A stretch of DNA of 64,000 nt from Granulicella aggregans (GTDB lineage Bacteria; Acidobacteriota; Terriglobia; Terriglobales; Acidobacteriaceae), in the NCBI RefSeq assembly GCF_025685565.1, contig NZ_JAGSYE010000003.1, positions 806,001 to 870,000 of the forward strand. The letters are read 5' to 3'. Shown here piece by piece: positions 14,509 through 52,881 of the stretch (positions are counted from its first letter, which is position 1; every line of letters starts with the position of its first letter). Both the position numbers and the translations under genes were made by a program. The notes under the pieces are model-generated. The model searched no databases. It saw nothing but the letters and a program-made list of their open reading frames with translations, and was not told the origin of the DNA.

Positions 14509-14532
14509 AGCCGACCCACTGGGCCGTGCGTC

Positions 14533-14669
14533 GAGTCGCTGGTGAACCCGTCTAAGACGGTGGGATCCCGCCGTGGCTCTTTAGGCTTTCCGGACTGGCG
14601 GACATAGCACACCGAGCCATATCTACGAGCTGGACCCCTGTTCAATGATTATTGGTTCAACCAGCGTTG
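14533..14669 (-). ncRNA. ssrS: 6S RNA (SsrS) candidate
   Basis: Read on the minus strand, CGCTGGTTGAACC (14666-14654) can pair with GGGTTCACCAGCG (14549-14537) as the closing stem. Inside it lie AGTCCGGAAAGCCTAAAG and then CCCACCGTCTTAGACGGGTT, which line up in order with the E. coli 6S segments GTCCGAGAAGCCTTAAAAC and TTCACCTTGAACCAAGGGTT, including the small 3' bubble hairpin. The gene lies directly downstream of zapA, the neighbour of ssrS in many bacteria. 6S RNA mimics an open promoter and sequesters the housekeeping RNA polymerase. Boundaries are approximate and the RNA may be longer at the 5' side, since about 137 bases is short for the family. Confidence 0.78.
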
Positions 14670-14778
14670 GTCGCGCACCTGCTTTGCAGGCCGGCCTCTG
14701 AATTGGATGCTAACCGCGCCGGCTCTTATTAGCAAGGCGGGCTGAAGTGGGACACCTCTACCATCAAAGCGGAATCGA

Positions 14779-17747: not shown

Positions 17748-18845
17748 CTATGCGAATTGTTCCAGGAAGCGCATATCGCCACTATAGAAGTGTCCGATAT
17801 CAGAGACGCCGTGCTGGATCATCGCGATGCGCTCGACGCCCATGCCGAAGGCGAAGCCGCTGATCTTCGCTGGGTCGTACGCGGGCTCGGTCTCTCCTGC
17901 CAAGGCACGCTGTTCGTTGACCGCGGCAAACACCGCCGGATCGACCATGCCGCAGCCCAGCAGTTCAATCCATCCCGAGTGCTTGCACTTTCGGCAGCCT
18001 TTGCCACCGCAGAAGATGCAGCTGATCTGCACGTCTGCGCTCGGCTCCGTGAACGGGAAGAAGCTGGGGAAGAATCGCGTCTTTACAGCCGATCCAAAGA
18101 GCGCCTTCATCGCATGATCGAGCGTGCCCTTCAGGTCGGAGAAGGTGATGTTGGTATCCACGCAGAGGCCTTCGACCTGGTGAAAGATCGGCGAGTGGGT
18201 CGCGTCCGCTGCATCGTTGCGATGCACCTTGCCCGGAATCACGATCCGCACCGGTGGAGCCTGCTCCACCATGGTGCGAATCTGCACCGGGCTGGTGTGT
18301 GTCCGCATCAGCAGCCGCTCGCGTGCGGGCTTCGATTGCTGGTTCGCGATGATCAGCGTGTCCTGCGTATCACGCGCCGGATGGTTCGGCGGAAAGTTCA
18401 GCGCTTCGAAGTTGTAGAAGTCCGTCTCCACCTGCGGCCCAGTGTTGGTGCCGAAGCCGAGATGATTGAAGACCTGGACAATCTCATGCATAGTCTTCAG
18501 AAGCGGGTGCTCCACACCCGGAGCGCGTACCGCTCCCGGCAAGGTGATGTCGATGCCGCGAATCTGTGCCGTAGCCGCAGCGGGAGCTTCCAGCGCCGCC
18601 TCGATCTGCTGCTTCAGCTGGTTGAACCGGATGCCCAGCGGCTTGCGCGCCTCTGCGGGCGCGGACTTCAGCCACGCCTCGCTGATCGTCTTCAGCCGGC
18701 CCTGCTTGCGGCCCAGCCAGTGCAGCCGGAAGGCTTCGGCGTCCATACCTGCCACATCGGCGGTCACCTCGGCCATCACACCTTGGAAGGCCTGGTCGAG
18801 CGTCGCATCGTCATAATTTTCTAGGAGGTTTACAGCGTCACTCAT
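17748..18845 (-). CDS. pheS: Phenylalanyl-tRNA synthetase alpha subunit
   Basis: The 365-residue catalytic subunit has an N-terminal helical arm (residues 1-100) and the class II catalytic core: GVEHPLLKTMHEIVQVFNHL, motif 2-like LRTHTSPVQIRTM, then FHQVEGLCVDTNITFSDLKG and motif 3 GFAFGMGVERIAMIQHGVSD. It forms an alpha2/beta2 enzyme with pheT, which is next downstream. The region CIFCGGKGCRKCKHSGW carries four Cys that could bind zinc, seen in some bacterial PheS. Identification is firm. Confidence 0.95.
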   Translation of the reverse strand: MSDAVNLLENYDDATLDQAFQGVMAEVTADVAGMDAEAFRLHWLGRKQGRLKTISEAWLKSAPAEARKPLGIRFNQLKQQIEAALEAPAAATAQIRGIDITLPGAVRAPGVEHPLLKTMHEIVQVFNHLGFGTNTGPQVETDFYNFEALNFPPNHPARDTQDTLIIANQQSKPARERLLMRTHTSPVQIRTMVEQAPPVRIVIPGKVHRNDAADATHSPIFHQVEGLCVDTNITFSDLKGTLDHAMKALFGSAVKTRFFPSFFPFTEPSADVQISCIFCGGKGCRKCKHSGWIELLGCGMVDPAVFAAVNEQRALAGETEPAYDPAKISGFAFGMGVERIAMIQHGVSDIGHFYSGDMRFLEQFA

Positions 18846-18880: not shown

Positions 18881-19061
18881 TGTCCTGCCGGACAGGTGCC
18901 CTACGCGGGCGGCGGGCGCTACGCGCCTTTTTTAACGCTTCGCATGGCCCTCCCGTCGGTCGGGATCAAACACTTCTTGCGACCAACGGGAGCACCACGC
19001 GAAGCGGTATACAAGTCACGAAGTGACCGCCCCGCGCGCAGCGGGCCGGTCCGGCAGGACA
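18881..19061. repeat. 181-bp palindromic dispersed element, copy A (full length)
   Basis: The element is bounded by perfect 13-base inverted repeats, TGTCCTGCCGGAC at 18881-18893 and GTCCGGCAGGACA at 19049-19061. Inner pairs are nearly complementary too (CGCTTCGCATGG with CCACGCGAAGCG, CTCCCGTCGGTCG with CGACCAACGGGAG), so the whole could fold into one long hairpin. The right 65 bases (18997-19061) recur at 37151-37215 with one difference and at 50330-50394 with three. It lies between the yceI terminator and the pheS start. No reading frame was recognised inside. Confidence 0.8.
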
Positions 19062-19072
19062 TATCTTCTCCC

Positions 19073-19117
19073 AAAAAGCGAATGCCTCGTGCTTGAAAGC
19101 ACGAGGCATTTCGCTTT
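19073..19117 (-). terminator. Intrinsic terminator, probably for yceI
   Basis: A long hairpin with the core TGCCTCGTGCTT/AAGCACGAGGCA, extended by AAAGCGAA and TTTCGCTTT on its flanks, lies 8 bases after the yceI stop. On the minus strand it ends in a run of five T. Its symmetry would allow it to work in both directions. Confidence 0.85.
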
Positions 19118-19125
19118 GGAGCTTT

Positions 19126-19707
19126 TTACTTCTGGTCAGCTTCGACATCGATCGTGAACTTTACTTCGTCGCCGAGGATCGGCTCCGAGAACTTCGATCC
19201 AAAGCCGAAGTCGCTGCGCTTGATCGTTCCGGTCGCGGAGAAGCCCGTCACGAGGCCGCCCTGCATACCCTTTACCGGGGCCGTCGGGCCGTCTACATCG
19301 AGCGTCACGGACTTGGTCACGCCAGCCAGCGTCAGGTCGCCGATAACCTTCAGCTTGCCATCAGCGCGAACCACCGATGTCGATTTGAACGTCAGCGTCG
19401 GGAACTTCTCGACGTTGAAGAAGTCCGGCGACTTCAGGTGCTTGTCGCGAGCTTCGTTGTTCGTGCTCACCGTGGTAGCGTCGATGGTCGCGGTGACGCT
19501 GGCCTTGGAAAGATCCTTCTCATCCCAGGTCACAACTCCGGTGACGCCGCTGATCGAGCCACGGACAGTGCTGACTGCAGCGTGACGAATCTGGAAGTTC
19601 ACCTCGCTGTGGTTCTTGTCGATGGTCCAGGTAGAGGTCTGGGCAAACGCGGTCGTTGCTGAAAGAACAACGCCTGCGACGAGTGCGATAAAGTTGCGAC
19701 GGTTCAT
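19126..19707 (-). CDS. YceI-family periplasmic lipid-binding protein
   Basis: The 193-residue protein has a signal peptide (FIALVAGVVLSATTAFAQ) and the YceI lipocalin-like barrel: TWTIDKNHSEVNFQIRHAAV at the start, later DFFNVEKFPTLTFKSTSVV, VIGDLTLAGVTKSVTLDVD and SDFGFGSKFSEPILGDEV. Members bind long polyisoprenoid or fatty amide ligands in the periplasm; the physiological partner here is unknown. The gene is followed closely by a strong intrinsic terminator, so it is probably a single transcription unit. Confidence 0.92.
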   Translation of the reverse strand: MNRRNFIALVAGVVLSATTAFAQTSTWTIDKNHSEVNFQIRHAAVSTVRGSISGVTGVVTWDEKDLSKASVTATIDATTVSTNNEARDKHLKSPDFFNVEKFPTLTFKSTSVVRADGKLKVIGDLTLAGVTKSVTLDVDGPTAPVKGMQGGLVTGFSATGTIKRSDFGFGSKFSEPILGDEVKFTIDVEADQK

Positions 19708-25201: not shown

Positions 25202-25265
25202 CGTCTTCTCTCCCCGTCAGTGCTTGTTGAAAAGCTCTTCCTTGATCTTGATCATCTCTGTATTG

Positions 25266-25340
25266 TTTAAGGGCACGACTTTAGCCGTGCCATCCATGCT
25301 GCCTCATCCACGGGGCTTTAGCCGCTGAGGTACCTTATGC
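25266..25340. repeat. Dispersed repeat with GGGCACGxCTTxAxCCGTGCC hairpin, copy 1
   Basis: The unit holds two hairpin-like parts: GGGCACGACTTTAGCCGTGCC and then GGGGCTTTAGCCGCTGAGG. A second copy at 44823-44900 lies inside the metalloprotease gene. The right end (25335-25340) reaches the stop codon of the FAD subunit, so the repeat supplies it. Confidence 0.7.
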
Positions 25341-26339
25341 CTGCTGGGTTGCGACTGTAAGTGCGTGAACGATACACCGCTTGGCCAGCTCCACTTTGAA
25401 TCCGTTCTCGCTCTGCGGCTTGGCTCCGTGCAGCGCTGCTTCGGCCGCTGTCCGAAAGCTCCTCTCATCTGCGGTCTTTCCCAATAGCGCATTCTCTGCC
25501 TCGTGCGATCGCCATGGTTTCGTTCCAACCCCACCCAGCGCCACGCGAATGTAGCTGATCTTTCCGCCATGCACCTCAACCACGATTGCAGCCGATGCCA
25601 GCGCAAACTCGTAGCTCGCTCTATCCCTCAACTTCAGGTAAGACTGTTTCGATCCCGCTTTCGCCGCAGGCAGCGTCACGCTCGTCACCAGGTCGCCCGG
25701 CTCCAGCACATTCTCGCGGTGCGGCATATTACCCGGCAGCAGATGGAACTCGCCGATGGGAACCTCGCGTTCGCCCTTCGCGCCCTTTATCTGCACGGTC
25801 GCCTCAAGCGCCACCAGCGCGATGTTCATGTCCGAAGGATTGGTTGCGATGCAATCGCTGCTCGTGCCCAGGATCGCAAGGCTCCGGTTGTCGCCCTCGA
25901 TCGCCGGACATCCCGTTCCCGGCTCACGCTTGTTGCACGGCAGCGCGTCGTTGCGGAAGTACATACACCGCGTCCGCTGCAACAGGTTGCCGCCGGTCGT
26001 CGCCATGTTGCGGAGCTGCGCCGAAGCGCCCGACAACAGCGCCTGCGAGAGCACCGCATAGTCTTTCTGGACTTCGGGATGGTGGGCGAGATCGGAGTTG
26101 CGCACCAGCGCGCCGATGCGCAGCCGGCCATCCGGGAGGCGCTCCACGTTGTCGAGCGCAAGGCCGTTGATGTCCACCAACTGCGTCGGCACCTCGACGT
26201 TCAGCTTCATCAGGTCGAGCAGCGTCGTTCCGCCCGCGATGAACCGCACATCCGCGCCCTGCTGCGCCGTCTTCGACAGAGCGGCCATCTGCACCGCCTG
26301 CGGAATCTCCGTCGCCTTCGTAAACTTGAATAGCTCCAT
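25335..26339 (-). CDS. Molybdenum hydroxylase FAD-binding subunit (PaoB/YagS type)
   Basis: The 334-residue protein has the CoxM/XdhB FAD motifs: VRFIAGGTTLLDLMKLNVEV near the N-terminus and MATTGGNLLQRTRCMYFRND. The latter, followed by PCNKREPGTGCPAIEGDNRS, has four Cys (RTRC, PC, GC, with another close) of the extra 4Fe-4S site seen in YagS. The C-terminal lobe is the CO dehydrogenase flavoprotein C-terminal domain. The ATG at MELFKFTKATEI is 11 bases downstream of the Fe-S subunit stop. The frame is open further upstream, but that would overlap the Fe-S gene. Confidence 0.92.
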   Translation of the reverse strand: MELFKFTKATEIPQAVQMAALSKTAQQGADVRFIAGGTTLLDLMKLNVEVPTQLVDINGLALDNVERLPDGRLRIGALVRNSDLAHHPEVQKDYAVLSQALLSGASAQLRNMATTGGNLLQRTRCMYFRNDALPCNKREPGTGCPAIEGDNRSLAILGTSSDCIATNPSDMNIALVALEATVQIKGAKGEREVPIGEFHLLPGNMPHRENVLEPGDLVTSVTLPAAKAGSKQSYLKLRDRASYEFALASAAIVVEVHGGKISYIRVALGGVGTKPWRSHEAENALLGKTADERSFRTAAEAALHGAKPQSENGFKVELAKRCIVHALTVATQQA

Positions 26340-34756: not shown

Positions 34757-34799
34757 CCCACCCATCCTCGCAAAAGACGCGAAGATGGATGGGGCACCC
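34757..34799. repeat. REP-like hairpin, CCCA[CT]xCATCGC family, copy 1 (inverted arms)
   Basis: CCCACCCATC, loop, then GATGGATGGGGCACCC gives a hairpin with 8 to 10 pairs. It belongs with 34866-34907, 39714-39760 and 52971-53015, all of which read GTGCCCCAxxCATCGC or its complement. Together with the second copy it fills the 218-base gap between two transcription units; otherwise nothing was seen there. Confidence 0.55.
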
Positions 34800-34865
34800 G
34801 ATCAGTTGCGACCGGTCAAGACTTCTGACGCACTGGAGTCGATGCTGTTGATCCACAAATGCCCG

Positions 34866-34907
34866 GGTGCCCCATCCATCGCGGTCGTATCGCGATGGGT
34901 GGGATGT
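34866..34907. repeat. REP-like hairpin, CCCCA[CT]xCATCGC family, copy 2
   Basis: GTGCCCCATCCATCGC is followed by a short loop and GCGATGGGTGGGAT, a hairpin with about 12 pairs. It is just 3' of the plsC stop (minus strand). A bidirectional attenuator role is possible, but no T run follows. Confidence 0.6.
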
Positions 34908-35650: not shown

Positions 35651-37117
35651 TCAGGATACTCCGGCAAACTCGACCGCAAGCGCTGCCGGAAGTTTCTCGT
35701 AGATGCCGCCGAAGCCACCGTTCGAAAGAATGGCGACGACGTCACCGGACCTCAGCTCCGGCACCAGCGCATCCACAATCGCATCGGCATCCGCATGCAG
35801 CTCCGCCGGAACCCCACGGGCATTCAGCCCCGCGACCACCTCTTCCGGATGCAGCCGCTCCGCCACAGGTATGCTCTCGGACTTGAAGACCTGCGCCAGC
35901 ACTACGGCATCGGCCAGCGCAAGACTGTCCACCAGCGCCTCCGCAAAGACATTTCGCCGCAGCGTATTCGATCGCGGCTCTAAGACCGCCCAGATTCTAC
36001 GGCCCGGATAGGCCTCCCGCAGGGCCCGCAGCGTCTCACGAATTGCCGTTGGGTGATGCGCGAAGTCGTCGATCACGGTCACGCCCGCAACCTTCGCCCG
36101 AACCTCCAGCCGCCGCTTCACACTCTTGAATGTCGCCAGTGCTTCGACAATCGCGACCACCGGAACTCCCTGGCCTGAGGCCAGCGCGGCTGCGGCCGTC
36201 GCGTTCATCGCGTTATGCTCGCCGGCCATTGGCAGGGTCAGATCTGCAAAGAACTCGCCGCCACGATCCAGGCGCCACGAGCTTACGCTGCCCTCGTGTC
36301 GCAATTTTGAGACCCGCCAGTACGACTCAGGATCGAAGCCGTAGCGCTCGACAAAACAGAATGCCTTCGCCACGCACTCCGACACGTTCTCGCTGCCATC
36401 GAACGCCACCAGCCGCCCGCGTCGTGGGATGAGATTCACCAGCCGCTTGAACGCCGTCTTCACCGCCGCAAGATCGTCGTAAATATCCGCATGATCGAAT
36501 TCCACGTGAGTCAGGATCGCGGCGTCGGGAAAATAGTGTAAAAACTTCGGGCCTTTATCGAAGAAGGCGGTATCGTACTCGTCGCCCTCAATCAGGAACG
36601 GCGGCCTTGCGCTGCCCACAACCGGACGCACCATGAAGCTCGTGCCAAAGTTCTCCGCCACTCCGCCGATCAGAAATGACGGGGCGAACATGGCGTCGTT
36701 CCTGGACGCGACCTCGTAGATCCAGGCCAACATACTGGTCGTGGTCGTCTTGCCATGCGTCCCCGCAACCACGAGCGACTCCCGTCCTGCGATGAACTCA
36801 TCATGCAGCAGCGCAGCCATCGAGCAGAACGAGATCCTCGTGTCGAGCACGTGCTCCAGCTCCACATTGCCGCGCGAGATTGCATTGCCCACCACCACCA
36901 GGTCCGGCCGCGGCTTGAGATTCGTCGCCGCATAAGGCTCGGCGACATGAATCCCCATCGTTCGCAGCTGATCGCTCATCGGCGGATAGGCCGCCGAATC
37001 CGAGCCTGTTACCCGGTGTCCCTGCTGCTGCAGCATCCCGGCCAGCGAAGCCATCGCCGTGCCACAGATGCCGATCAAGTGAATATGTTTCGAAGCTTTA
37101 CCGTCAGTCGTATGCAT
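35651..37117 (-). CDS. mpl: UDP-N-acetylmuramate:murein tripeptide ligase Mpl
   Basis: The 488-residue ATP-dependent ligase belongs to the Mur family: Rossmann-type GICGTAMASLAGMLQQQGHR, ATP site GTHGKTTTTSMLAWI, and EGDEYDTAFFDKGPKFLHYF, which is diagnostic of Mpl as opposed to MurC. It links recycled L-Ala-gamma-D-Glu-meso-DAP directly to UDP-MurNAc. The C-terminal FAHHPTAIRETLRALREA is the third domain. Recycling genes ldcA and dapF lie immediately upstream on the same strand; a repeat copy separates mpl from ldcA. Confidence 0.93.
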   Translation of the reverse strand: MHTTDGKASKHIHLIGICGTAMASLAGMLQQQGHRVTGSDSAAYPPMSDQLRTMGIHVAEPYAATNLKPRPDLVVVGNAISRGNVELEHVLDTRISFCSMAALLHDEFIAGRESLVVAGTHGKTTTTSMLAWIYEVASRNDAMFAPSFLIGGVAENFGTSFMVRPVVGSARPPFLIEGDEYDTAFFDKGPKFLHYFPDAAILTHVEFDHADIYDDLAAVKTAFKRLVNLIPRRGRLVAFDGSENVSECVAKAFCFVERYGFDPESYWRVSKLRHEGSVSSWRLDRGGEFFADLTLPMAGEHNAMNATAAAALASGQGVPVVAIVEALATFKSVKRRLEVRAKVAGVTVIDDFAHHPTAIRETLRALREAYPGRRIWAVLEPRSNTLRRNVFAEALVDSLALADAVVLAQVFKSESIPVAERLHPEEVVAGLNARGVPAELHADADAIVDALVPELRSGDVVAILSNGGFGGIYEKLPAALAVEFAGVS

Positions 37118-37150: not shown

Positions 37151-37215
37151 ACGCGAAGCGGTATACAAGTCACGAAGTGACCGCCCCGCGCGCAGCGGGC
37201 CCGTCCGGCAGGACA
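37151..37215. repeat. Palindromic dispersed element, copy B (right half only)
   Basis: The 65 bases from ACGCGAAGCGG to GTCCGGCAGGACA match 18997-19061 except for one base and 50330-50394 except for two. The left half with the matching inverted end is missing. It lies between the mpl start and the ldcA stop. Confidence 0.8.
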
Positions 37216-37228
37216 TGGCCTCTACGAA

Positions 37229-38143
37229 TCAGCCCCTGAAAAACTCCAGCCTGGGCTCCCCACCCAAATCCAGCCTGGCCTGCGCCCCAAGCGTCAAAGT
37301 CACATTCCCCGCCCCCACATGCCCGCTCCTTAGCCCAATCCCCACCGGCCCTGCAAAATCCCGCAGCGCATGAAGAATCGCCCGCTCCAGCAGCTCCTGG
37401 TCCTCCGCCGGAACGCACTGCGTCATATCGCCCAGCACAATCCCCTTCACACCATCCAACTGCCCCGCATAACGAAGATGCAGCAACTGCCGGTCCCACT
37501 GATACGGCTTGGTTCCAATGTCCTCGAGAAAGAGGATCCCCTCCGAAACCTCCGGCGCATAAGGCGTTCCCACCGCTTCCACGAAGATCGACAGACATCC
37601 GCCGTCGAAGACGCCTTCCGCCACCCCGGGCTTGAGAACCCGCAGCCCCTCCGCTGCTCCCACCGACCAGGCGCCACCACTAGCTCCCACCACAGCAGCC
37701 CAACTGGCAACATCCGCTCCGTCCCCCCGCGAAAAATCCGCCGCGACCATAGGCCCGTGGAACGTTACCAGCCCGGCAAACTTTCGCATCCAGATATGCA
37801 GCGAGGTATGGTCGCTATACCCGACAAACACCTTCGGATTTGCCTTGATTAGCGCAGCATCGAGATACGGCAGCAACTCCGCCGAACCCCACCCTCCACG
37901 CGTACACACGATCCCATCGATGCTCGTGTCCGCGAACGCCGCATGAAGATCGTCGACCCGCTCCGCGACCGTGCCGGCGTAGTAAAGCGGTCCCCGCGAC
38001 AGCGCATGTGGGAAGAGCACTGGCTCGTACCCCATCGCACGCAGCCGCTCCATTCCTGCCTCAACCAACTCCGCCTTCGCAGCGCTCGCCGGCGACACAA
38101 TCGCGAGCCTTGCCCCCGGCTTCAGAGCTTTGGGACGAATCAC
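37229..38143 (-). CDS. ldcA: Murein LD-carboxypeptidase (S66 family)
   Basis: The 304-residue serine peptidase has the S66 motifs: GIVCTRGGWGSAELLPYLD, VFVGYSDHTSLH (the nucleophile Ser), FHGPMVAADF, then FLEDIGTKPYQWDRQLLHL with the catalytic Glu, and a final RSGHVGAGNVTL in the position of the catalytic His. It removes D-Ala from murein tetrapeptide in recycling. The start is a GTG that overlaps the dapF stop by 4 bases (GTGA); longer in-frame starts would overlap dapF further. Confidence 0.9.
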   Translation of the reverse strand: MIRPKALKPGARLAIVSPASAAKAELVEAGMERLRAMGYEPVLFPHALSRGPLYYAGTVAERVDDLHAAFADTSIDGIVCTRGGWGSAELLPYLDAALIKANPKVFVGYSDHTSLHIWMRKFAGLVTFHGPMVAADFSRGDGADVASWAAVVGASGGAWSVGAAEGLRVLKPGVAEGVFDGGCLSIFVEAVGTPYAPEVSEGILFLEDIGTKPYQWDRQLLHLRYAGQLDGVKGIVLGDMTQCVPAEDQELLERAILHALRDFAGPVGIGLRSGHVGAGNVTLTLGAQARLDLGGEPRLEFFRG

Positions 38144-38943
38144 AGGCCGGCAACCTTGCCCGTGCAGATGATCTCCGCAGGTCCGGTTAGCCGCATCACC
38201 TCTTGATTGCTCGGCCAAAGTGTCCTCTGCGGGCCGCCTTCAGCCAGCGCCGTCAGCTCGCGATTCACTCCACGCAACACCATCGCCGCCGAAGAAGAAG
38301 CACACGTCCCCGTCCCCGAAGAAGTCGTAGGCCCACACCCACGTTCAAAGATGCGAAACTCAATCTCGCCCTGCGAGAGCACCTTTACGAACTCCACATT
38401 CGTTCCATGCGCGAACATCGGATCGGTGCTGATCTTCGCTCCAAGCTCTTGCCAGCTCATGCCATGCGCGCTGAAGTCGTCCGTCTCCACAAACAGCACA
38501 TAGTGTGGATTGCCCACATTCACCATCGCACCTTCAACGATCCCCACGCCGGGCAGATCGATCGCTCGCGCCATCACCCGCGGCACGCCCATCTCGCTCT
38601 CAATGGTGTAGACCGGATCGCTCGCCTCAATCACCGTGCAGGCCCGCTTGCCGCCGTGCGTGCCCAACGTCACCTGCGTCAGTCCCTCGCTCTGCGCCAA
38701 CCACGCGGCCACGCACCGCGTCCCGTTGCCTGAAAGCTCCGCCTCGCTGCCATCTGCATTGAACAACCGCAGAAAGAACTCCCCGGCCGCACGGCGTTCC
38801 AAAAACTCAATCCCATCCGCGCCAATCGAAGTGTTCCGCGAACAAAGCTTCCTAGCAAGCTCCGCATGTCTCCGCTGCGCTACAGCTTCTTCCAGAATCA
38901 GAAAATCATTCCCACAAGCATGGGCCTTCACAAAATCCATCAC
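38140..38943 (-). CDS. dapF: Diaminopimelate epimerase, second catalytic Cys replaced by Ser
   Basis: The 267-residue protein has the DapF fold features HACGNDFLIL, ADGSEAELSGNGTRCVAAWL (first active-site Cys) and IFERGCGPTTSSGTGTCAS. In E. coli DapF the second motif reads TxACGSGACA with Cys217; here the aligned position is Ser. It would interconvert LL- and meso-diaminopimelate for lysine and murein if active. It overlaps mgtC upstream and ldcA downstream by 4 bases each. The family is sure; full epimerase activity is not. Confidence 0.85.
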   Translation of the reverse strand: MMDFVKAHACGNDFLILEEAVAQRRHAELARKLCSRNTSIGADGIEFLERRAAGEFFLRLFNADGSEAELSGNGTRCVAAWLAQSEGLTQVTLGTHGGKRACTVIEASDPVYTIESEMGVPRVMARAIDLPGVGIVEGAMVNVGNPHYVLFVETDDFSAHGMSWQELGAKISTDPMFAHGTNVEFVKVLSQGEIEFRIFERGCGPTTSSGTGTCASSSAAMVLRGVNRELTALAEGGPQRTLWPSNQEVMRLTGPAEIICTGKVAGL

Positions 38944-39680: not shown

Positions 39681-39706
39681 TGTCATTCCCGGAGGGAATC
39701 TGCGTT
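39681..39706. repeat. Short palindromic repeat TGTCATTCCCGxAGGGAATC, copy 1
   Basis: The palindromic core ATTCCCGGAGGGAAT sits within TGTCATTCCCGGAGGGAATC, with TGCGTT after it. A second copy lies at 47570-47595 with two differences. Both are in intergenic gaps. Confidence 0.55.
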
Positions 39707-39713
39707 ACGCTTT

Positions 39714-43348: not shown

Positions 43349-44986
43349 TCAGTGAGTATATCGTCCGGCCAGAGCCGCTTTCATCACGCCGAACTGCCCC
43401 ATGATGCGCACCAAGGACATCGCTGGCCCCATCTCGTTCACGCCCGCCACCTGCAGCGGCCCGCTGGACTGCACCTCTTCCACGCCGTCCCGAAGCTTTC
43501 GCGCCAGCGCTAGATCGAAGCCCTCGGCCACAAACACCTGGTCGTCCTTCAACGAGATGAGCACATCGCCCTCGTTGGTCGAGTACACCTGCTCGTCGTC
43601 GCCAACCTCATCCTTTTCGCGCCGCTTCAAACCGGAGTACTTTCTTGCCAGTTGCGCCGCGTAAATCCGCATAAACGACCGCGCCGAATCCTCGTTCTCC
43701 CACTTCGAGTAGTAGAAAATGCCCAGCGAAGCGGGTGTCTCTTTCTGCGCCGCCGTTGCACTCTTGCGCTGCGCCGCATAGTAGATTCCACCCTTCCACG
43801 CCGGCGAAAGCGCCGCGGCAATCTGCTGGCCGCCAAACAACTCGGCGATGATCCGCACATCCAGCTCACCCATCACGCCCTCGTCATACGGCGTGTACTC
43901 GGCATCAATCAGCGGATGGATATCCGGCATCCGCAACACCGGCACCGGCGTGTGCGCGAGATACGCATCCGGATGAATAATCTCGAAGCTCGACGAAGGC
44001 GGCCGGCTCAACACGCCCGCAAACGCCGCATCACTTCCCGCCTTCACCAGGACACGATGCTCAAACGCCAGCCCATCGCCATAAGGAAACAGCAGCGACT
44101 TCTGCAACAGCAGTGGAGCCCGCGCCAGCAGTGGCGATCCTCCCGTGTCCTCGGTCATCTCCTTCAGCTTCGGCCCCATGTCCGGCGCATCGGCAATCGT
44201 CTTGCCGGAGTCCTTCAGCCCGTAGTCGACGAAGACCGCCATCGCCTGGCCTTCGGTCACGGCCTCGCGCGCCGTATCGCCCTCGTCCGTCTGGATGTGA
44301 TCGACATCCTCAGCATGCGTCTTCGCGATCCCCTTCGGCCCAACCTCCGACCACTTCGAAAGATCTACCTTCTGATCCTGCAGCGCATGCGTCAGTTCAT
44401 GCGCCAGCACAGACTTCTGCTCATCCGGAGCGATCCAGTCCAGCAGATTCACCGTCTTCGTCTTGTCGTCGTAGTAGCCGGCGATCTGCTCCGTCAGCAA
44501 CGAGACCAGGAACGTCTGCAGATGAAAGTCGCGATCCAACAGACCAAACTTCTTCAGAACGATTTCAGACCGTTCCAGCCGCTTCGTGCTCTCGTCCTTA
44601 TCGAACCGCTCACGCAGGAACTTGTTCACCTCATCGCGTGAGATCAGCGTCCGCTTTACGCTGTGCTCGATCGGCAGCTTGGAGTCCTTGCTGGCAAACG
44701 CCAGAATCTCGTCGACGGACTTGAACAGCTCCTTCGCCTGATCCTTGGTCATCCGGGTCTCACCCGTAGCGGCGTCCTTCTTGTCTTTATCAGCAGCAAC
44801 CGATCCCATGAGGGCAATCTTGCTTAAGGGCACGGCTTCAACCGTGCCATATCCGCTCTCTAAAATCTGCGGCTTTAGCCGCTGAGGTACGCTTTGCCCT
44901 ACAGCCGAACCAGATGCAGCGCTCGCCACCAGCAGCACCGCCGCCCACCCACCACCCAGCTTCAACCCAGCCATACGCCTCCGCAT
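43349..44986 (-). CDS. Secreted zinc metalloprotease candidate (HExxH)
   Basis: A 545-residue protein with an N-terminal signal-like hydrophobic segment (GGWAAVLLVASAASGSAVG). The gluzincin-type motif SVLAHELTHALQDQKVDL supplies the HExxH, and EAVTEGQAMAVFVDYGL may supply the third ligand Glu. A DUF6782-like group of acidobacterial proteins looks similar, but I am unsure. Residues about 30 to 55, just after the signal, are encoded by a dispersed repeat (GQSVPQRLKPQILESGYG), which also occurs outside genes in this window. Start: GTG-ATG in tandem, the ATG is used. It diverges from ygfZ with 47 bases between. Confidence 0.72.
   Translation of the reverse strand: MRRRMAGLKLGGGWAAVLLVASAASGSAVGQSVPQRLKPQILESGYGTVEAVPLSKIALMGSVAADKDKKDAATGETRMTKDQAKELFKSVDEILAFASKDSKLPIEHSVKRTLISRDEVNKFLRERFDKDESTKRLERSEIVLKKFGLLDRDFHLQTFLVSLLTEQIAGYYDDKTKTVNLLDWIAPDEQKSVLAHELTHALQDQKVDLSKWSEVGPKGIAKTHAEDVDHIQTDEGDTAREAVTEGQAMAVFVDYGLKDSGKTIADAPDMGPKLKEMTEDTGGSPLLARAPLLLQKSLLFPYGDGLAFEHRVLVKAGSDAAFAGVLSRPPSSSFEIIHPDAYLAHTPVPVLRMPDIHPLIDAEYTPYDEGVMGELDVRIIAELFGGQQIAAALSPAWKGGIYYAAQRKSATAAQKETPASLGIFYYSKWENEDSARSFMRIYAAQLARKYSGLKRREKDEVGDDEQVYSTNEGDVLISLKDDQVFVAEGFDLALARKLRDGVEEVQSSGPLQVAGVNEMGPAMSLVRIMGQFGVMKAALAGRYTH
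44823..44900. repeat. Dispersed repeat with GGGCACGxCTTxAxCCGTGCC hairpin, copy 2 (inside a gene)
   Basis: The unit has GGGCACGGCTTCAACCGTGCC and then GCGGCTTTAGCCGCTGAGG, matching 25266-25340 apart from the spacer between the two hairpin parts. It lies in frame in the metalloprotease gene, right behind the signal peptide, and would be translated as GQSVPQRLKPQILESGYG and following. Confidence 0.75.
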
Positions 44987-47569: not shown

Positions 47570-47595
47570 TGTCATTCCCGAAGGGAATCGGCGTT
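47570..47595. repeat. Short palindromic repeat TGTCATTCCCGxAGGGAATC, copy 2
   Basis: TGTCATTCCCGAAGGGAATC followed by GGCGTT. It lies 7 bases after the DUF1844 stop, and has the same sequence as copy 1 at 39681 except for two bases. Confidence 0.55.
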
Positions 47596-47636
47596 CAGCT
47601 CTTCTCAATCCCTTTCCCTTGGCCCTTTCTTCCTGA

Positions 47637-48491: not shown

Positions 48492-49258
48492 GACGATGCT
48501 TCTGCGCCCTCGTTCTCTCCCTCGTGACCTCCGGCCAATGCTGCGTCGCGCAGAGAGCGAAACTTCTTCTGCCGGAAACCAAACGCGAAGTCTCCGTGAC
48601 ACTGACGAAACCCGTTGAGCGAGGCTCTTTCCGCACAGTAACGATTGTTTCAAATGGAAGATCAGTTTCGCTGATGCCAAAAAACTCTGTCATCCAAATT
48701 CCCGATGGTGCTGGAGAAAAACTGGCAAGAGGAGTTTGGACCGACATTCCCGGCCTGAAGCTGCACCCTTCGCGTTGCTTCCTGACTGGCAGCTACTCTA
48801 TCGACTCCCAATCGCACACGTTGTTGTTTTTTCTCGGAGAAGCCGGTATCGGAGCTGCTCCGGTCTTCATCGTAGGCTTCTCTGACGACGGCCAGCCCTT
48901 CAAAATCCTTGATCAAACCGAATTGGACGTGACCTCTCTTCAGCCGTCCCCCGATGGCGTCTTCATTGTCGGCAAAACAAGTCTCTCCGAGGTGATGGCG
49001 GGCGACGGAGGCAAAGGTTCAAAGAAGCCATACGCCACAACCTACGACCCCTTCTCGGTCTATCTCGTGCGTCCATCCGGTCCCGCGGTCTATTCCCTGG
49101 AAGCATCCCGGGCCTATAACGAGAAGCATTATGTTTGGGTTGGGCCGCATATTCGCGAGGACTATGCCGTCCTCTACAACATGCCCGGACACTCCAAGCT
49201 TTTAGGCGCACCTGCCTCAAAGGTCAGCGAGCTCCTTGCTCATGCGGGAGTTAGATAG
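48488..49258 (+). CDS. Secreted protein of unknown function
   Basis: The 256-residue protein has a signal peptide (RRCFCALVLSLVTSGQCCVA) and a beta-rich mature part with no motif I recognise; WTDIPGLKLHPSRCFLTGSY and SVYLVRPSGPAVYSLEASRA look like propeller or sandwich repeats. Its codon use seems slightly less GC-rich than its neighbours. The start overlaps the MBL hydrolase by 4 bases. The next gene begins 4 bases after its stop. Confidence 0.7.
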   Translation: MRRCFCALVLSLVTSGQCCVAQRAKLLLPETKREVSVTLTKPVERGSFRTVTIVSNGRSVSLMPKNSVIQIPDGAGEKLARGVWTDIPGLKLHPSRCFLTGSYSIDSQSHTLLFFLGEAGIGAAPVFIVGFSDDGQPFKILDQTELDVTSLQPSPDGVFIVGKTSLSEVMAGDGGKGSKKPYATTYDPFSVYLVRPSGPAVYSLEASRAYNEKHYVWVGPHIREDYAVLYNMPGHSKLLGAPASKVSELLAHAGVR

Positions 49259-49262
49259 TCCG

Positions 49263-50267
49263 ATGAAGATCTACCGCAGCCTCGCCGAACTCCCCACCGA
49301 CGTCGGCCCCACCGTGGCCACCATCGGAAACTTCGACGGCGTTCACCGCGGCCACCAATGGGTCATCGACGAGGTCATCGCCCGGGCTGCCGCACTCGGA
49401 GCCACGTCGCTTGCAATTACTTTGGACCCCCACCCCGCCCGCGTCCTCGGCAAGCAGGCCAATCTAACCCTTATCACCCCGCTCGAAGAGAAGCTCGCGC
49501 TCCTCGCCGCCACTGGCATCGACGCCGCCTTCGTCCTCCCCTTCGACCTCGAACTCTCCCGCCTCACCGCCCGCGAGTTCGCCTCGACCATCCTTCGTGA
49601 CGCGCTCCACGTCGCGGAGGTCCACGAGGGCGAGAACTTCCGCTTCGGCCACCATGCGGAGGCCGGCGTCGAAGGCCTCGAACAGCTAGGCCGCGATCTC
49701 AGCTTCAACGTCCGCGCCTACGCCCCCCGTGCCCTGCGTGGCGAAGCCGTCTCTTCCAGCCGCATCCGCAAGCTCATCGCCGCAGGAGAAGTCCATCGCG
49801 CCCGCCCACTCCTGGGCCGCCCTTTTAGCATCGTCAGCACCCCGGCCTCAGGCCGAGGCTACGGCACCAAATACACTGTTCCCACGATCAATCTCGCCGA
49901 CTACGCGGAACTCCTACCCGCCACCGGCGTATACATCACCCAGATCTCTATCAATAACGAAACCTTCGACGCCGTCACCAACGTAGGCACACGCCCTACC
50001 TTCGGCCACATCCCCGGCACGCCCGACTTCACCGTCGAGACCCACATCCTCAACTTCCACCCCATCGACCTGACGGAGACCACCCCTATCCGTCTAGCCT
50101 TCCTGCACCGGCTCCGGCCCGAGATCAAGTGGCCCAATCCGGAAGCCCTACGCGCCCAGATCGGCCTCGACGTAGCCCGCGCGAAACGCTACTTCTCTCT
50201 TTGTAAGAGACTGGCAAAGACTGTCCTGCCAGACGAGCGCCCTCCGCGGGCGGCGGTCACTTCGTGA
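49263..50267 (+). CDS. ribF: Bifunctional riboflavin kinase/FAD synthetase, C-terminus encoded by a repeat
   Basis: The 334-residue enzyme has the FAD synthetase nucleotidyltransferase half (TIGNFDGVHRGHQWVID, GENFRFGHHAEAGVEGL, SSSRIRKLIAAGEVHRA) and the riboflavin kinase half (GRGYGTKYTVPTINLAD, NVGTRPTFGHIPGTPDFTVE). It makes FMN and FAD. From residue 320 the reading frame enters a dispersed repeat, so the last 14 residues (VLPDERPPRAAVTS) and the stop codon come from it. The core enzyme is complete before that. The ATG at MKIYRSLAEL is chosen over a farther upstream ATG inside the previous gene. Confidence 0.92.
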   Translation: MKIYRSLAELPTDVGPTVATIGNFDGVHRGHQWVIDEVIARAAALGATSLAITLDPHPARVLGKQANLTLITPLEEKLALLAATGIDAAFVLPFDLELSRLTAREFASTILRDALHVAEVHEGENFRFGHHAEAGVEGLEQLGRDLSFNVRAYAPRALRGEAVSSSRIRKLIAAGEVHRARPLLGRPFSIVSTPASGRGYGTKYTVPTINLADYAELLPATGVYITQISINNETFDAVTNVGTRPTFGHIPGTPDFTVETHILNFHPIDLTETTPIRLAFLHRLRPEIKWPNPEALRAQIGLDVARAKRYFSLCKRLAKTVLPDERPPRAAVTS

Positions 50268-50394
50268 CTCGTATTGGGCTTCGCATGTTGCTCGCAAACA
50301 CGCTGCGGGTGCCGACCAACGGGAGGCCCACGCGAAGCGGTATACACGTCACGAAGTGACCGCCCCGCGCGCAGCGAGCCCGTCCGGCAGGACA
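50222..50394. repeat. Palindromic dispersed element, copy C (full length, overlaps ribF)
   Basis: Bounded by TGTCCTGCCAGAC (50222-50234) and GTCCGGCAGGACA (50382-50394), which pair except at one position. An inner pair GGCGGTCACTTCGTGAC and GTCACGAAGTGACCGCC is perfect over 17 bases, so a long hairpin can form. The right 65 bases match the other two copies with 2 or 3 changes. Its left 46 bases are translated as the end of RibF. It ends 7 bases before the stop of the convergent PBP gene. Confidence 0.85.
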
Positions 50395-50400
50395 TCGCCT

Positions 50401-52881
50401 CTAGTGCGGTACCGTCTTAGGCTTCCCCGTAGTTTCAGCAGCATCCTCCGGGACCGCATCAGCCGGCATCACTGCCGTGCCCGCTGCCGCCGCCGGAGCA
50501 TCCTGATCCTCATCCGCATCCGGCTCGAGCGGCTTCGCCTTCCTCACCGGCTTAGGCGCGTCCGCTTCGCCCAGAGGCACCTCAAGCTCCTTCTTCGGCG
50601 CGCCCTCGCTCGGAAAGACCTCATCCGGTCGCGTCGCAATCACCGCCCTCATAAAATCCATCCACATCGGCAACGCCGCCTTTGCGCCCGTCTCCTTCTC
50701 ACCCAGCGACTGCCTGTCGTCGAACCCAATCCACGTCCCGCACGTCACCCCCGGCGAGAAGCCCACAAACCACGCATCCGTGTAGTTGTTCGTCGTCCCC
50801 GTCTTGCCGCCCAGAGGATGGTGAAGTTGCGAGGCCGCAGCGCCCGTCCCATACGCGACAACAGCCCGCAGAAGCTGCATCATCGTCCGCGCCGTGTCTA
50901 CTGAGATCACCTCTTTTACAGGCACCTCGATCTCGTGCATCGGCTGCCCATCCGCCTGCGTGACGCGGCGAATGTAGTGCGGTTCAATCCTGATCCCATC
51001 GTTGGGAAAGACGCTGTACGCTCCCACCTGCTCGGCGAGCGTAATGTCTGCCGACCCGATTGCCACCGGCAGAAACGCCGGGATATTGCTGGTGATCCCA
51101 AACCGGTGCGCCGTCTCAATCACCTTCGTGATTCCCGCCTTCGCCGCCAGCTTCAACGCCGGGATGTTCCGTGACTCCGCAAATGCGGTAATCAGAGTCA
51201 TCGCGCCTTTGTAGTCGCCCTCGTAGTTATGCGGCGTATACGGCCCGTTCGGCGTGTAGAACGACGTCGGCCCATCCACAATAATGTCCGTCGGCTTAGC
51301 TCCCGCCTCGACTGCCGTCGTATAAACATATGGCTTGAACGACGACCCCACCTGCCGCTGCGCCTGCGTAGCCCGGTTGAACTGCGACAGCGCATAGTCG
51401 CGGCCGCCCACCATCGCCAGCACCTCGCCGTTCACGTTGTCGATCGCCATCATCGACGCCTGCGCTCCCGAGTCCTGCTCCAGCAGCGCATGCATCCCGC
51501 CATCCGGGAGTACCTTGTCCACCTTCACGTAAACCAGATCGCCGGTCCGCAGAAAACTGTCCGCCGTCGGAAACTGTGTCCAGGCCCAATCCGCCGGCTT
51601 CAGTACCGCTCGGCGAGCGCCCATCTTCACCACGACATGGTCGGCGGCGACTTCGCCCACCAGCCCATGCACGTATGTCCCTTCAATCACCGGCTGCGCC
51701 CAGTCAGGATGCTTGTAGAGGTCAGGATCGAGCCCCGCCAGCACCACGTTCAGCAGATGCCCCTGCCATCCCCGCCGCCGCTCGTACGCTGCCGTCCCAT
51801 CGAGCACCGCCTTGTTCGCCACGGCCTGCAGGTCCAGGTCGAGCGTCGTATCCACCCGCAGCCCCGCTCCGTGCACCTCTTCGACGCCATACTCCTTTTC
51901 GAGCTGCCGCCGAACCTCTTCGACAAAATAAGGCGCAACATTGTTCGAAGGCGTCTCGATCCGCAGCCCCAGCGGCGCAGCCTCCGCCGCCTTCGCCTGC
52001 TCGGCGGTGATCTTCTTGTCGTGCAGCATCTCGCTCAGCACGAGGTTTCTGCGTTTCAACGCCTTCTCCGGGTAGCGTAGTGGCGAGTACGCCTCCGGCC
52101 CCTTCGGCAGTGCTGCCAGCAGAGCCGCCTCCTGCAGGTTCAGGTCCTTCACATGCTTGCTGAAGTAGAACTCGCTGCCCGCCTCGAACCCATACGTCCC
52201 ACGCCCCAGATAGATCTGATTCGCATACAGCGTGAAGATCTGCTCCTTGGTAAACCGCCGCTCGATCTGCATCGAGAGCAGTACCTCCTGCAGCTTTCGC
52301 CCGTAAGTCTTTTCGGACGACAGAAACAGGTTCCGCGCCAACTGCATCGTCAGCGTCGAAGCCCCTTGCGCCCTCCCCTTCGCATGAAGGTCCCGCCAAG
52401 CCGCACCCACCGCCCGAAAGAGGTTTACGCCCCAGTTTCGTTCGAAGCTCTTATCTTCAATGGAGATGATCGCGTCCCGCAGGTTGACCGGGATATCCGA
52501 GTACTGCACCACCACCCGGCGCTCCAGTGAAAAGCTGCCAAACGCCCGGCCATGCACGTCATAGAGCGTCGTCGTCGTATTCGGCCGGTACTTTACCAGG
52601 TCGTCGATCTGCGGCAGGTCGACCGAGTACACCAGCATCAGCCCGCACATCACCCCGAAGAGCGCCGACAGTAGCAACAGCACGCTGAACGTAGCTCGAG
52701 CCACAGCCTTGTGGCTCTTCGGCGGCTCCCAGCCATTCTTTCGCTTCTCTTCAAGCTCCCGCTCGCGTTCGGCCCTGGTCTCGGCCTCCCAGCGTGCTTC
52801 GAGCGCCGCCAGACGCTCTGCTTCGGCGTCATCTACGTCTTCGCGATCTCGGGAGGGTCGGCTGCGGAAGAGACTCAACAC
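50401..52881 (-). CDS. Penicillin-binding protein 1A (class A)
   Basis: The 826-residue bifunctional enzyme has an N-terminal cytoplasmic tail rich in charged residues, a membrane helix (FSVLLLLSALFGVMCGLMLV), the GT51 glycosyltransferase (SIEDKSFERNWGVN with the catalytic Glu, then RAQGASTLTMQLARNLFLS) and the transpeptidase: GSSFKPYVYTTAVEAG (SxxK), AESRNIPALKLA (SxN) and GGKTGTTNNYTDAWFVGFSP (KTG). The C-terminal tail is Pro/Ala/Glu-rich. It builds and cross-links peptidoglycan. All catalytic motifs are intact. Confidence 0.93.
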   Translation of the reverse strand: MLSLFRSRPSRDREDVDDAEAERLAALEARWEAETRAERERELEEKRKNGWEPPKSHKAVARATFSVLLLLSALFGVMCGLMLVYSVDLPQIDDLVKYRPNTTTTLYDVHGRAFGSFSLERRVVVQYSDIPVNLRDAIISIEDKSFERNWGVNLFRAVGAAWRDLHAKGRAQGASTLTMQLARNLFLSSEKTYGRKLQEVLLSMQIERRFTKEQIFTLYANQIYLGRGTYGFEAGSEFYFSKHVKDLNLQEAALLAALPKGPEAYSPLRYPEKALKRRNLVLSEMLHDKKITAEQAKAAEAAPLGLRIETPSNNVAPYFVEEVRRQLEKEYGVEEVHGAGLRVDTTLDLDLQAVANKAVLDGTAAYERRRGWQGHLLNVVLAGLDPDLYKHPDWAQPVIEGTYVHGLVGEVAADHVVVKMGARRAVLKPADWAWTQFPTADSFLRTGDLVYVKVDKVLPDGGMHALLEQDSGAQASMMAIDNVNGEVLAMVGGRDYALSQFNRATQAQRQVGSSFKPYVYTTAVEAGAKPTDIIVDGPTSFYTPNGPYTPHNYEGDYKGAMTLITAFAESRNIPALKLAAKAGITKVIETAHRFGITSNIPAFLPVAIGSADITLAEQVGAYSVFPNDGIRIEPHYIRRVTQADGQPMHEIEVPVKEVISVDTARTMMQLLRAVVAYGTGAAASQLHHPLGGKTGTTNNYTDAWFVGFSPGVTCGTWIGFDDRQSLGEKETGAKAALPMWMDFMRAVIATRPDEVFPSEGAPKKELEVPLGEADAPKPVRKAKPLEPDADEDQDAPAAAAGTAVMPADAVPEDAAETTGKPKTVPH

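Follow-up and report, generated by a model that had tools for sequence, protein, structure and literature searches.

The window, a stretch of 64,000 nucleotides from Granulicella aggregans, carries three copies of a family of hairpin repeats that is a real and apparently undescribed relative of the bacterial REP repeats; we recognised no published description of it in the literature. We favour, with a probability of about 0.7, the reading of a genus-specific, non-autonomous palindromic family of the REP/BIME/REPIN kind, in which old insertions were followed by retention and by exchange of modules through short-tract gene conversion. Copies are retained at orthologous sites in related genomes, and at several sites the hairpin modules of the orthologous copies differ far more than the adjoining flanks.

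Window copies and anatomy of the arm

We found the three copies that a preliminary description of the window had reported, all of them on the plus strand: copy 1 at 18881-19061 (181 bp) and copy 3 at 50222-50394 (173 bp), which are inverted pairs of arms, and copy 2 at 37151-37215 (65 bp), a half copy that consists of a single right arm. The near identity of the 65-bp right halves was also confirmed, since copy 2 shares 98% identity with that of copy 1 (18997-19061) and 97% with that of copy 3 (50330-50394). The 13-bp inverted ends are perfect in copy 1 (TGTCCTGCCGGAC / GTCCGGCAGGACA) and present one mismatch in copy 3, as had been noticed. The left halves are diverged, as described before, yet they are units of the same kind in inverted orientation that belong to another arm variant. 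Within the window the end motif occurs nine times at up to one mismatch against 0.43 expected, several of these occurrences being both strands of one near-palindromic end.

Copy 1 joins a left arm of class B, with a terminator-like third hairpin, to a right arm of class A. From left to right it contains the end hairpin H1 (GTCC-tgcc-GGAC, 18882-18893), the class B hairpin 3 (18914-18928, plus strand, six pairs) followed by a T run (tail TTTTTAACGC), which resembles an intrinsic terminator on that strand, and a central hairpin (CTCCCGTCGGTCGG ... CGACCAACGGGAG) at 18950-18992, not assigned to a strand. The right arm follows on the plus strand, with the class A hairpin H3 (GTCAC-gaa-GTGAC, 19015-19027), the hairpin H2 (CCCGC-gcgca-GCGGG, 19031-19045), whose stem varies among copies, and the right end hairpin H1 (19049-19060). 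Folding, which had been proposed as a check, separated the full copy as RNA very clearly from its shuffles (z -8.5), whereas the single arm, copy 2, folded as DNA did not stand out (z -0.75).

The basic unit of the family is an arm of about 85 nt composed of several small hairpins, which is found alone or as an inverted pair. For its description, 99 end arms were aligned, coming from two element-rich genomes of the same genus (G024, 280 kb; G013, 120 kb), from the window's own genome and from other loci. At the outer end lies H1 (GTCC-tgcc-GGAC), followed by H2, with six pairs, one bulged base, a loop that is mostly TGCGC or TACGC and a variable stem. H3 exists in two classes, A (GTCAC-ttc-GTGAC) and B (GGCGT-tcgc-ACGCC with a T run, terminator-like). 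Inward of H3 there is a GTATAC block, or a variant with a small hairpin H4, and then one half of the central hairpin (CTCCCGTTGGTCG).

The local H2 hairpins are maintained through paired base changes. Across the 99 arms, pairing in H2 amounts to 98.1%, and at three of the six pairs both partners have changed, in 20, 24 and 55 sequences; the loop is kept and the stem presents at least six alleles. In five genomes we observed the stems CTCC/GGAG, CCAC/GTGG, GCCC/GGGC, CCGC/GCGG, TCCC/GGGA, TCGC/GCGA and CGCC/GGCG, and the four inner pairs were fully paired in 32/44, 39/44, 42/53, 40/47 and 19/24 candidates, where the remainder include false candidates, arms whose stem is broken and arms in which H2 is laid out differently. 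When the partner was slid by 1-3 columns, the paired cells of the 99 arms fell from 94% to 31-47%, and none of 500 shuffles reached the covariation score. For the whole arm structure, no shuffle among 500 equalled the observed value in three of the five measures, and 11 did so in another one. Further pair types were no more numerous than in the shuffles (18 versus a mean of 17.2; 183 of 500 reach the value). It should be noted that the letters of H1 and H3 belonged to the rule by which arms were collected and the H2 stem letters did not, so the pairing of H1 and H3 proves less and only H2 constitutes an unbiased test of covariation. As a separate observation, some arms (L123 9006, L125 4378, L131 7994, L134 7423 and G057 block b3 58791) hold inside H2 an extra insert of about 40 nt that itself forms a hairpin (CCCCACAAACGAAGACCTGTTTGTGGGG or paired variants of it); the presence of this insert varies between orthologous copies.

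In the fetched DNA and the window, 41 inverted pairs were collected, and single arms are as common as pairs. Regarding the arm ends, 31 pairs combine TTGGTCGC with TTGGTCGG, seven combine TTGGTCGG with TTGGTCGG and three are of other composition; none of the 41 combines TTGGTCGC with TTGGTCGC. The 15-base H2 block, loop included, is unlike between the two arms in 36 of these pairs. Counting stems only, with a slightly wider filter that admits 42 pairs, the left and right H2 stems differ in 23 of the 32 pairs in which both are fully paired; it is therefore the local hairpin that is kept and not a long palindrome. Class B accounts for 19 of 119 arms, 18 of which have the T run. By class, 21 pairs are AA, 18 are AB and none is BB, an absence that could be due to chance.

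Distribution and position relative to genes

A search of the window's genome with the 65-bp right half gave 42 half-unit matches at E ≤ 0.01, which group into 33 loci, nine of them with two halves. The repeat is thus present in high copy number. A total of only three copies, which the preliminary description had named as adverse to its proposal of a dispersed palindromic REP- or MITE-like element, is not the case; that proposal was right in kind. In the same genome, copies of the element account for 17 of the 18 exact end motifs (compared by eye), and the motif is found 141 times in G013 and 209 times in G024, against none for a reversed control. In the many soil bacteria that carry it, the element occupies between a few and well over a hundred places per genome.

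Among the genomes sampled, the family is restricted to one genus. The DNA search of 41 genomes gave matches in 18, all of them of the window's genus. Within the genus, the arm covariance model found matches in 36 of 60 genomes, with at least 94 scored candidates in ten of them, and no copy in 24. In the class-wide covariance search, run with stricter filters under which weak matches may be lost, 12 of 151 genomes and one of 72 genera were positive. An exact pattern scan of named genomes gave two matches, one in a Terriglobus MAG and one in Acidobacteriaceae bacterium KBS 89, and viral contigs contained no exact match to the 40-position pattern. At gathering thresholds, Rfam recognised no family at the window copies and nothing beyond a tRNA in four element-rich stretches. 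Elsewhere in the window, Rfam identified a 6S RNA gene (RF00013, 62 bits) at 14509-14695 on the minus strand.

With respect to the neighbouring genes, copy 1 lies 35 bp upstream of the start codon of pheS (17748-18845, minus strand; PF01409, PF02912) and 64 bp beyond the stop of a yceI-like gene (19126-19707, minus strand; PF04264), with a terminator-like hairpin of the yceI strand (19081-19110) in between. Copy 2 is located 13 bp behind the stop of an ldcA-like LD-carboxypeptidase gene (37229-38218, minus strand; PF02016, PF17676) and 33 bp before the start of an mpl-like Mur-ligase gene (35651-37117, minus strand; PF01225, PF08245, PF02875). Copy 3 occupies the space between the convergent ribF (49236-50267, plus strand; FAD synthetase and flavokinase domains) and a penicillin-binding-protein gene (50401-52881, minus strand; transglycosylase and transpeptidase domains), whose stop is 6 bp away. 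The location at gene 3' ends, which had been attributed to all three copies, describes copy 1 only loosely. At 50222-50267, the ribF frame takes its final 14 codons and its stop from copy 3; it ends at an in-frame TGA (50265-50267, plus strand) after the element-encoded tail VLPDERPPRAAVTS.

On a wider scale, a frame of at least 80 codons stops 0-9 bp before 21 of 62 arm ends, compared with 50 of 2000 random positions in the same stretches, a control that is not confined to spacers and is too lenient. With a crude gene caller, 25 of the 44 ends that face a predicted stop were within 0-10 bp of it, and 34 of them lay between -5 and 20 bp. In a matched control, made of random element-size blocks in 418 element-free spacers, 21% lay at 0-9 bp and 39% at 0-20 bp, so that the excess is about two- to threefold; the shortness of the spacers explains part of the closeness to stop codons. 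Convergent genes flank 20 of 57 elements, compared with 94 of the 474 spacers that measure 100-800 bp; 11 of 57 elements lie between divergent genes, and 9 of 67 fall inside genes predicted by the crude caller. Some frames run, as ribF does in the window, into an element and stop at the TGA in H3 with tails such as VLPDGPAARGAVTS, and a tail of the kind LPD..AVTS ends frames in four genomes; some of the frames that open into elements may be antisense artefacts. For annotation, the consequence is that some elements give reading frames their stop codons and short C-terminal tails.

Orthologous sites and their hairpin modules

One site, here site (a), is known in the occupied and in the unoccupied state. 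In the 15 genomes compared (14 of the 17 searched plus G024), nine carry the element after an identical left boundary and five (G018, G070, G068, G020 and G004) have the spacer without it; the element is absent from G005 too, with a doubtful right flank. The search for empty sites in relatives that had been suggested was thus successful in this case. Among the nine occupied genomes we found four H2 stem alleles, all of them paired. Site (b) is a convergent spacer that was examined in 14 of 16 genomes plus G024. The element is present in 10 of 10 readable spacers, 0-8 bp behind the putative stop, as a full pair, a half or a remnant with unlike arms; the spacer of G044 is partly N, and those of G068, G052, G020 and G018 are not aligned on both sides.

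Between G024 and G013, whose larger syntenic blocks are mostly 81-92% identical, 11 sites are occupied in both genomes and the H2 blocks differ at several of them. Flank identity is variable, with 79/80 as the best value and flanks that could not be aligned on one side at some sites. The best flank is the left one of site 73648, where 79 of 80 positions are identical and the H2 stem is CTCC/GGAG in one genome versus CCAC/GTGG in the other. At site 229085, G013 has no element, and its flank can be matched as far as the stop codon. At most of the sites occupied in only one genome, the spacers are too diverged for clean junctions.

A closer comparison was possible between G057 and G164, with about 590 kb aligned in four blocks of 97.0-98.6% mean identity. 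Here 32 of 34 G057 elements have a partner in G164, so that recent copying, offered in the preliminary description as a cause of the conserved right half, is not likely; the copies seem to have been kept alike through exchange. No clean empty site was seen between these very close genomes, the two G057 elements that are absent from G164 being located in rearranged spacers. On average, elements and flanks diverge equally (mismatches 115/4401 and 398/15739, respectively), so that the element as a whole shows no trace of purifying selection.

About five of the 32 pairs differ by a confined block, with a flank mismatch of 0-6.4%. At b1 64995 the difference includes a paired change in H4, from CCGAAGG to GCGAAGC; at b1 71745 and b2 164861 the modules are of unlike length; and at b2 99388 the G164 stem block is incompletely paired (GCCC/CGGC). 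At b2 128551 (G164 C2:275928) the H2 stem, loop and bulge differ from those of the G057 partner, and the G164 22-mer is found identical at three other places of G164, one of them about 5.6 kb away. By coordinate, these three donor-like places match three of four G057 places, and the G057 partner site does not have the block. Since the G057 allele at this site is also common, the change could run either way. The confined blocks together with the exact matches elsewhere in G164 point to an exchange of short tracts between copies. Where, as in some of the five cases, one flank is also more diverged than average, an older allelic tract may have been imported from another lineage; such an import would move the exchange back in time, not remove it. 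Apart from these pairs, a sixth candidate whose module differs (b3 58791) was not counted, its flanks being about 15% diverged, and an apparent arm in block 1 at 94094 was a false match in a frame-like stretch, removed by a changed filter. In L138 (5207-6790), two elements lie 1.2 kb apart, one of them reduced to a 49-bp hairpin, and a flank of about 80 bp is repeated behind both, which by eye corresponds to a local duplication with an element at its edge.

We propose that the copies would first have arrived by insertion through an enzyme acting in trans, and that afterwards they would mostly have stayed in place and swapped hairpin modules by short-tract gene conversion, for which the constant blocks between the modules give homology. 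In the weakest step of this scheme, the hairpins would be tolerated, and perhaps useful, as mRNA 3' ends, some arms having an intrinsic-terminator-like hairpin.

Alternative explanations and known repeat families

Paired stem changes could also come from template switching during replication within each hairpin instead of gene conversion between copies. According to PMC8794818, this process creates and repairs perfect hairpins, and H2 and H4 are short inverted repeats; it may originally have created the paired alleles. However, both sides of the stem, the loop and the bulge change together, the resulting block exactly equals that of other copies, and modules of unlike length have been exchanged (b1 71745, b2 164861), so we consider it quite improbable as an alternative to exchange. 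More doubtful than convincing is the explanation by which the elements would be selected 3'-end modules, acting as terminators in both directions or as hairpins at mRNA 3' ends by which the genes upstream are protected or tuned, in the manner of the REPs near stop codons in E. coli. Its arguments are the proximity to stops (25/44 and 34/44 in the two distance ranges against 21% and 39% in the matched control), the occupation of the convergent spacer in 10 of 10 readable genomes, the T run in 18 of 19 class B arms and the stalling of ribosomes by E. coli REPs situated within 15 nt of a stop codon, reported in PMC12306157, which also contains a table row for a Granulicella genome. An mRNA 3'-end role, for which these E. 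coli REPs are a precedent, would agree with the T runs and with some of the data on position. It obtains no support from the mean divergence of the elements, which equals that of their flanks; besides, 11 of 57 elements lie between divergent genes, copy 1 is beyond the yceI terminator-like hairpin, 24 of 60 genomes of the genus showed no copy, and a good part of the insertions would fall near stops simply because spacers are short. A cassette-like system, with 3'-end elements retained by the host and modules (of constant loop, with several fully paired stem alleles and at times a terminator hairpin) reshuffled among many loci through short-tract gene conversion in such a way that the transcript ends behind many genes would be re-tuned together, is unlikely. 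The strong fold of the full copy and the covariation would also be expected from a trans-acting structured non-coding RNA family, but the result with Rfam at gathering thresholds, the many dispersed copies and the frequency of single arms make it extremely improbable.

As for the mobiliser, a host RAYT (Y1 transposase) acting on REPINs would account for the inverted pairs of hairpin units, for the single units as possible leftovers and for the intergenic position, and the search for Y1_Tnp in 18 genomes gave 47 matches in 15 of them. Nevertheless, it was not found in G002, G010 and G013, the first and the last of which are rich in the element; a lost or distant Y1 could have acted. Furthermore, the arm model, applied to about 1.5 kb around 31 of the 47 Y1 matches, was positive at none of them, with two chance-level matches (best E 0.6), and the GTAG-like foot is absent from the consensus of the 99 arms (by eye). 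The RAYT association suggested in the preliminary description was therefore not borne out, and we regard this explanation as very unlikely. At the Y1 loci of the window's genome there are repeats of other kinds, compared by eye. One of them, a palindromic repeat (GATGGATGGGGCACCCG...) at window 34784-34880, has a similar sequence beside the Y1 genes of L033 and L031 and may be a real RAYT-linked repeat of this genome; a further dispersed repeat (TTGTTTAAGGGCACGACTTTAGCCGTGCC...), with two window stretches that are 75% identical (25263-25341 and 44820-44898), has a similar stretch upstream of the Y1 gene of L032. A GTCATTCCCGGAGGGAATCTGCG repeat is also present in the window (39682-39708 and 47571-47597), with a close form in a G164 spacer without one element. 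The inverted ends with a conserved TGTCC start and the left boundary shared by the occupied and unoccupied forms of site (a) would suit a MITE, derived by deletion from a DDE insertion sequence that shares its terminal inverted repeats. In opposition to this, the 17 of 18 exact end motifs of the own genome that are copies of the element (by eye; the transposase search covered Y1 only) and the abundance of single arms, as common as pairs, tend to speak against such an origin. Nor did the 23 pairs examined for target duplication present a consistent direct repeat; the best of 144 offset and length tests corresponded to 3 bp (z 2.9). We hold the MITE origin to be distinctly unlikely. Given the outcome of the mobiliser and duplication searches and the rearranged spacers, the insertion step of the favoured reading, that of a REP-like family with exchange between retained copies, is supported mainly by site (a) and by the dispersal of the family.

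Whether REP-like repeats are copied to new sites or undergo gene conversion between old ones has been a question since 1988, when gene conversion was reportedly proposed for REPs in a review by Higgins et al. Here the position is fixed and single modules distinguish the orthologous copies, in one case with an exact donor block at other places of the genome, which bears on the evolution of these repeats. In addition, the family offers a natural test of why local hairpins, and not a long palindrome, are kept.

Among the known systems, ERIC, BOX and RUP elements are also intergenic, palindromic or modular and of about 100-200 bp, in hosts unrelated to those of the arm family. To our knowledge their sequence is unrelated to it, and we know of no exchange of paired stem alleles between their copies. 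Correia/NEMIS MITEs are short, intergenic and have inverted ends, as is the case of the arm family, which presents the terminal inverted repeats of a MITE; it differs from them in that neither a consistent target duplication nor, in the search for Y1, a parent transposase was found. The CGTC REPs, according to PMC3733652, are high-copy palindromes without a dedicated transposase, with predominance of heterodimers in some families; they have a single stem of 8-9 bp with AT at the first two pairs and mostly a CCA tail. In contrast, the arm has in H1 a 4-bp stem followed by further hairpins, and by eye the unpaired CGTC tag, the stem of 8-9 bp starting with AT pairs and the CCA tail are absent. 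The TIRYTs of Acidobacteria, which the same paper describes as flanking tyrosine transposase genes, share with the arm family the phylum and the inverted repeats, but the arms were not found beside Y1 genes. Further literature consulted comprises PMC3116915, PMC8049555 and PMC2267715. The REP/BIME/REPIN families with GTAG foot and RAYT differ in their unit, one palindrome of 20-40 bp instead of an arm of about 85 nt with several hairpins and no GTAG foot, and in their RAYT, which was beside none of the copies tested. They share with the arm family the dispersed intergenic palindromes, in inverted pairs and singlets, often near gene ends. In the wide sense of REP, the many extragenic palindromic copies per genome agree with this group, and so does, for REPs and REPINs, the inverted pairing of palindromic units as a frequent arrangement (41 pairs).
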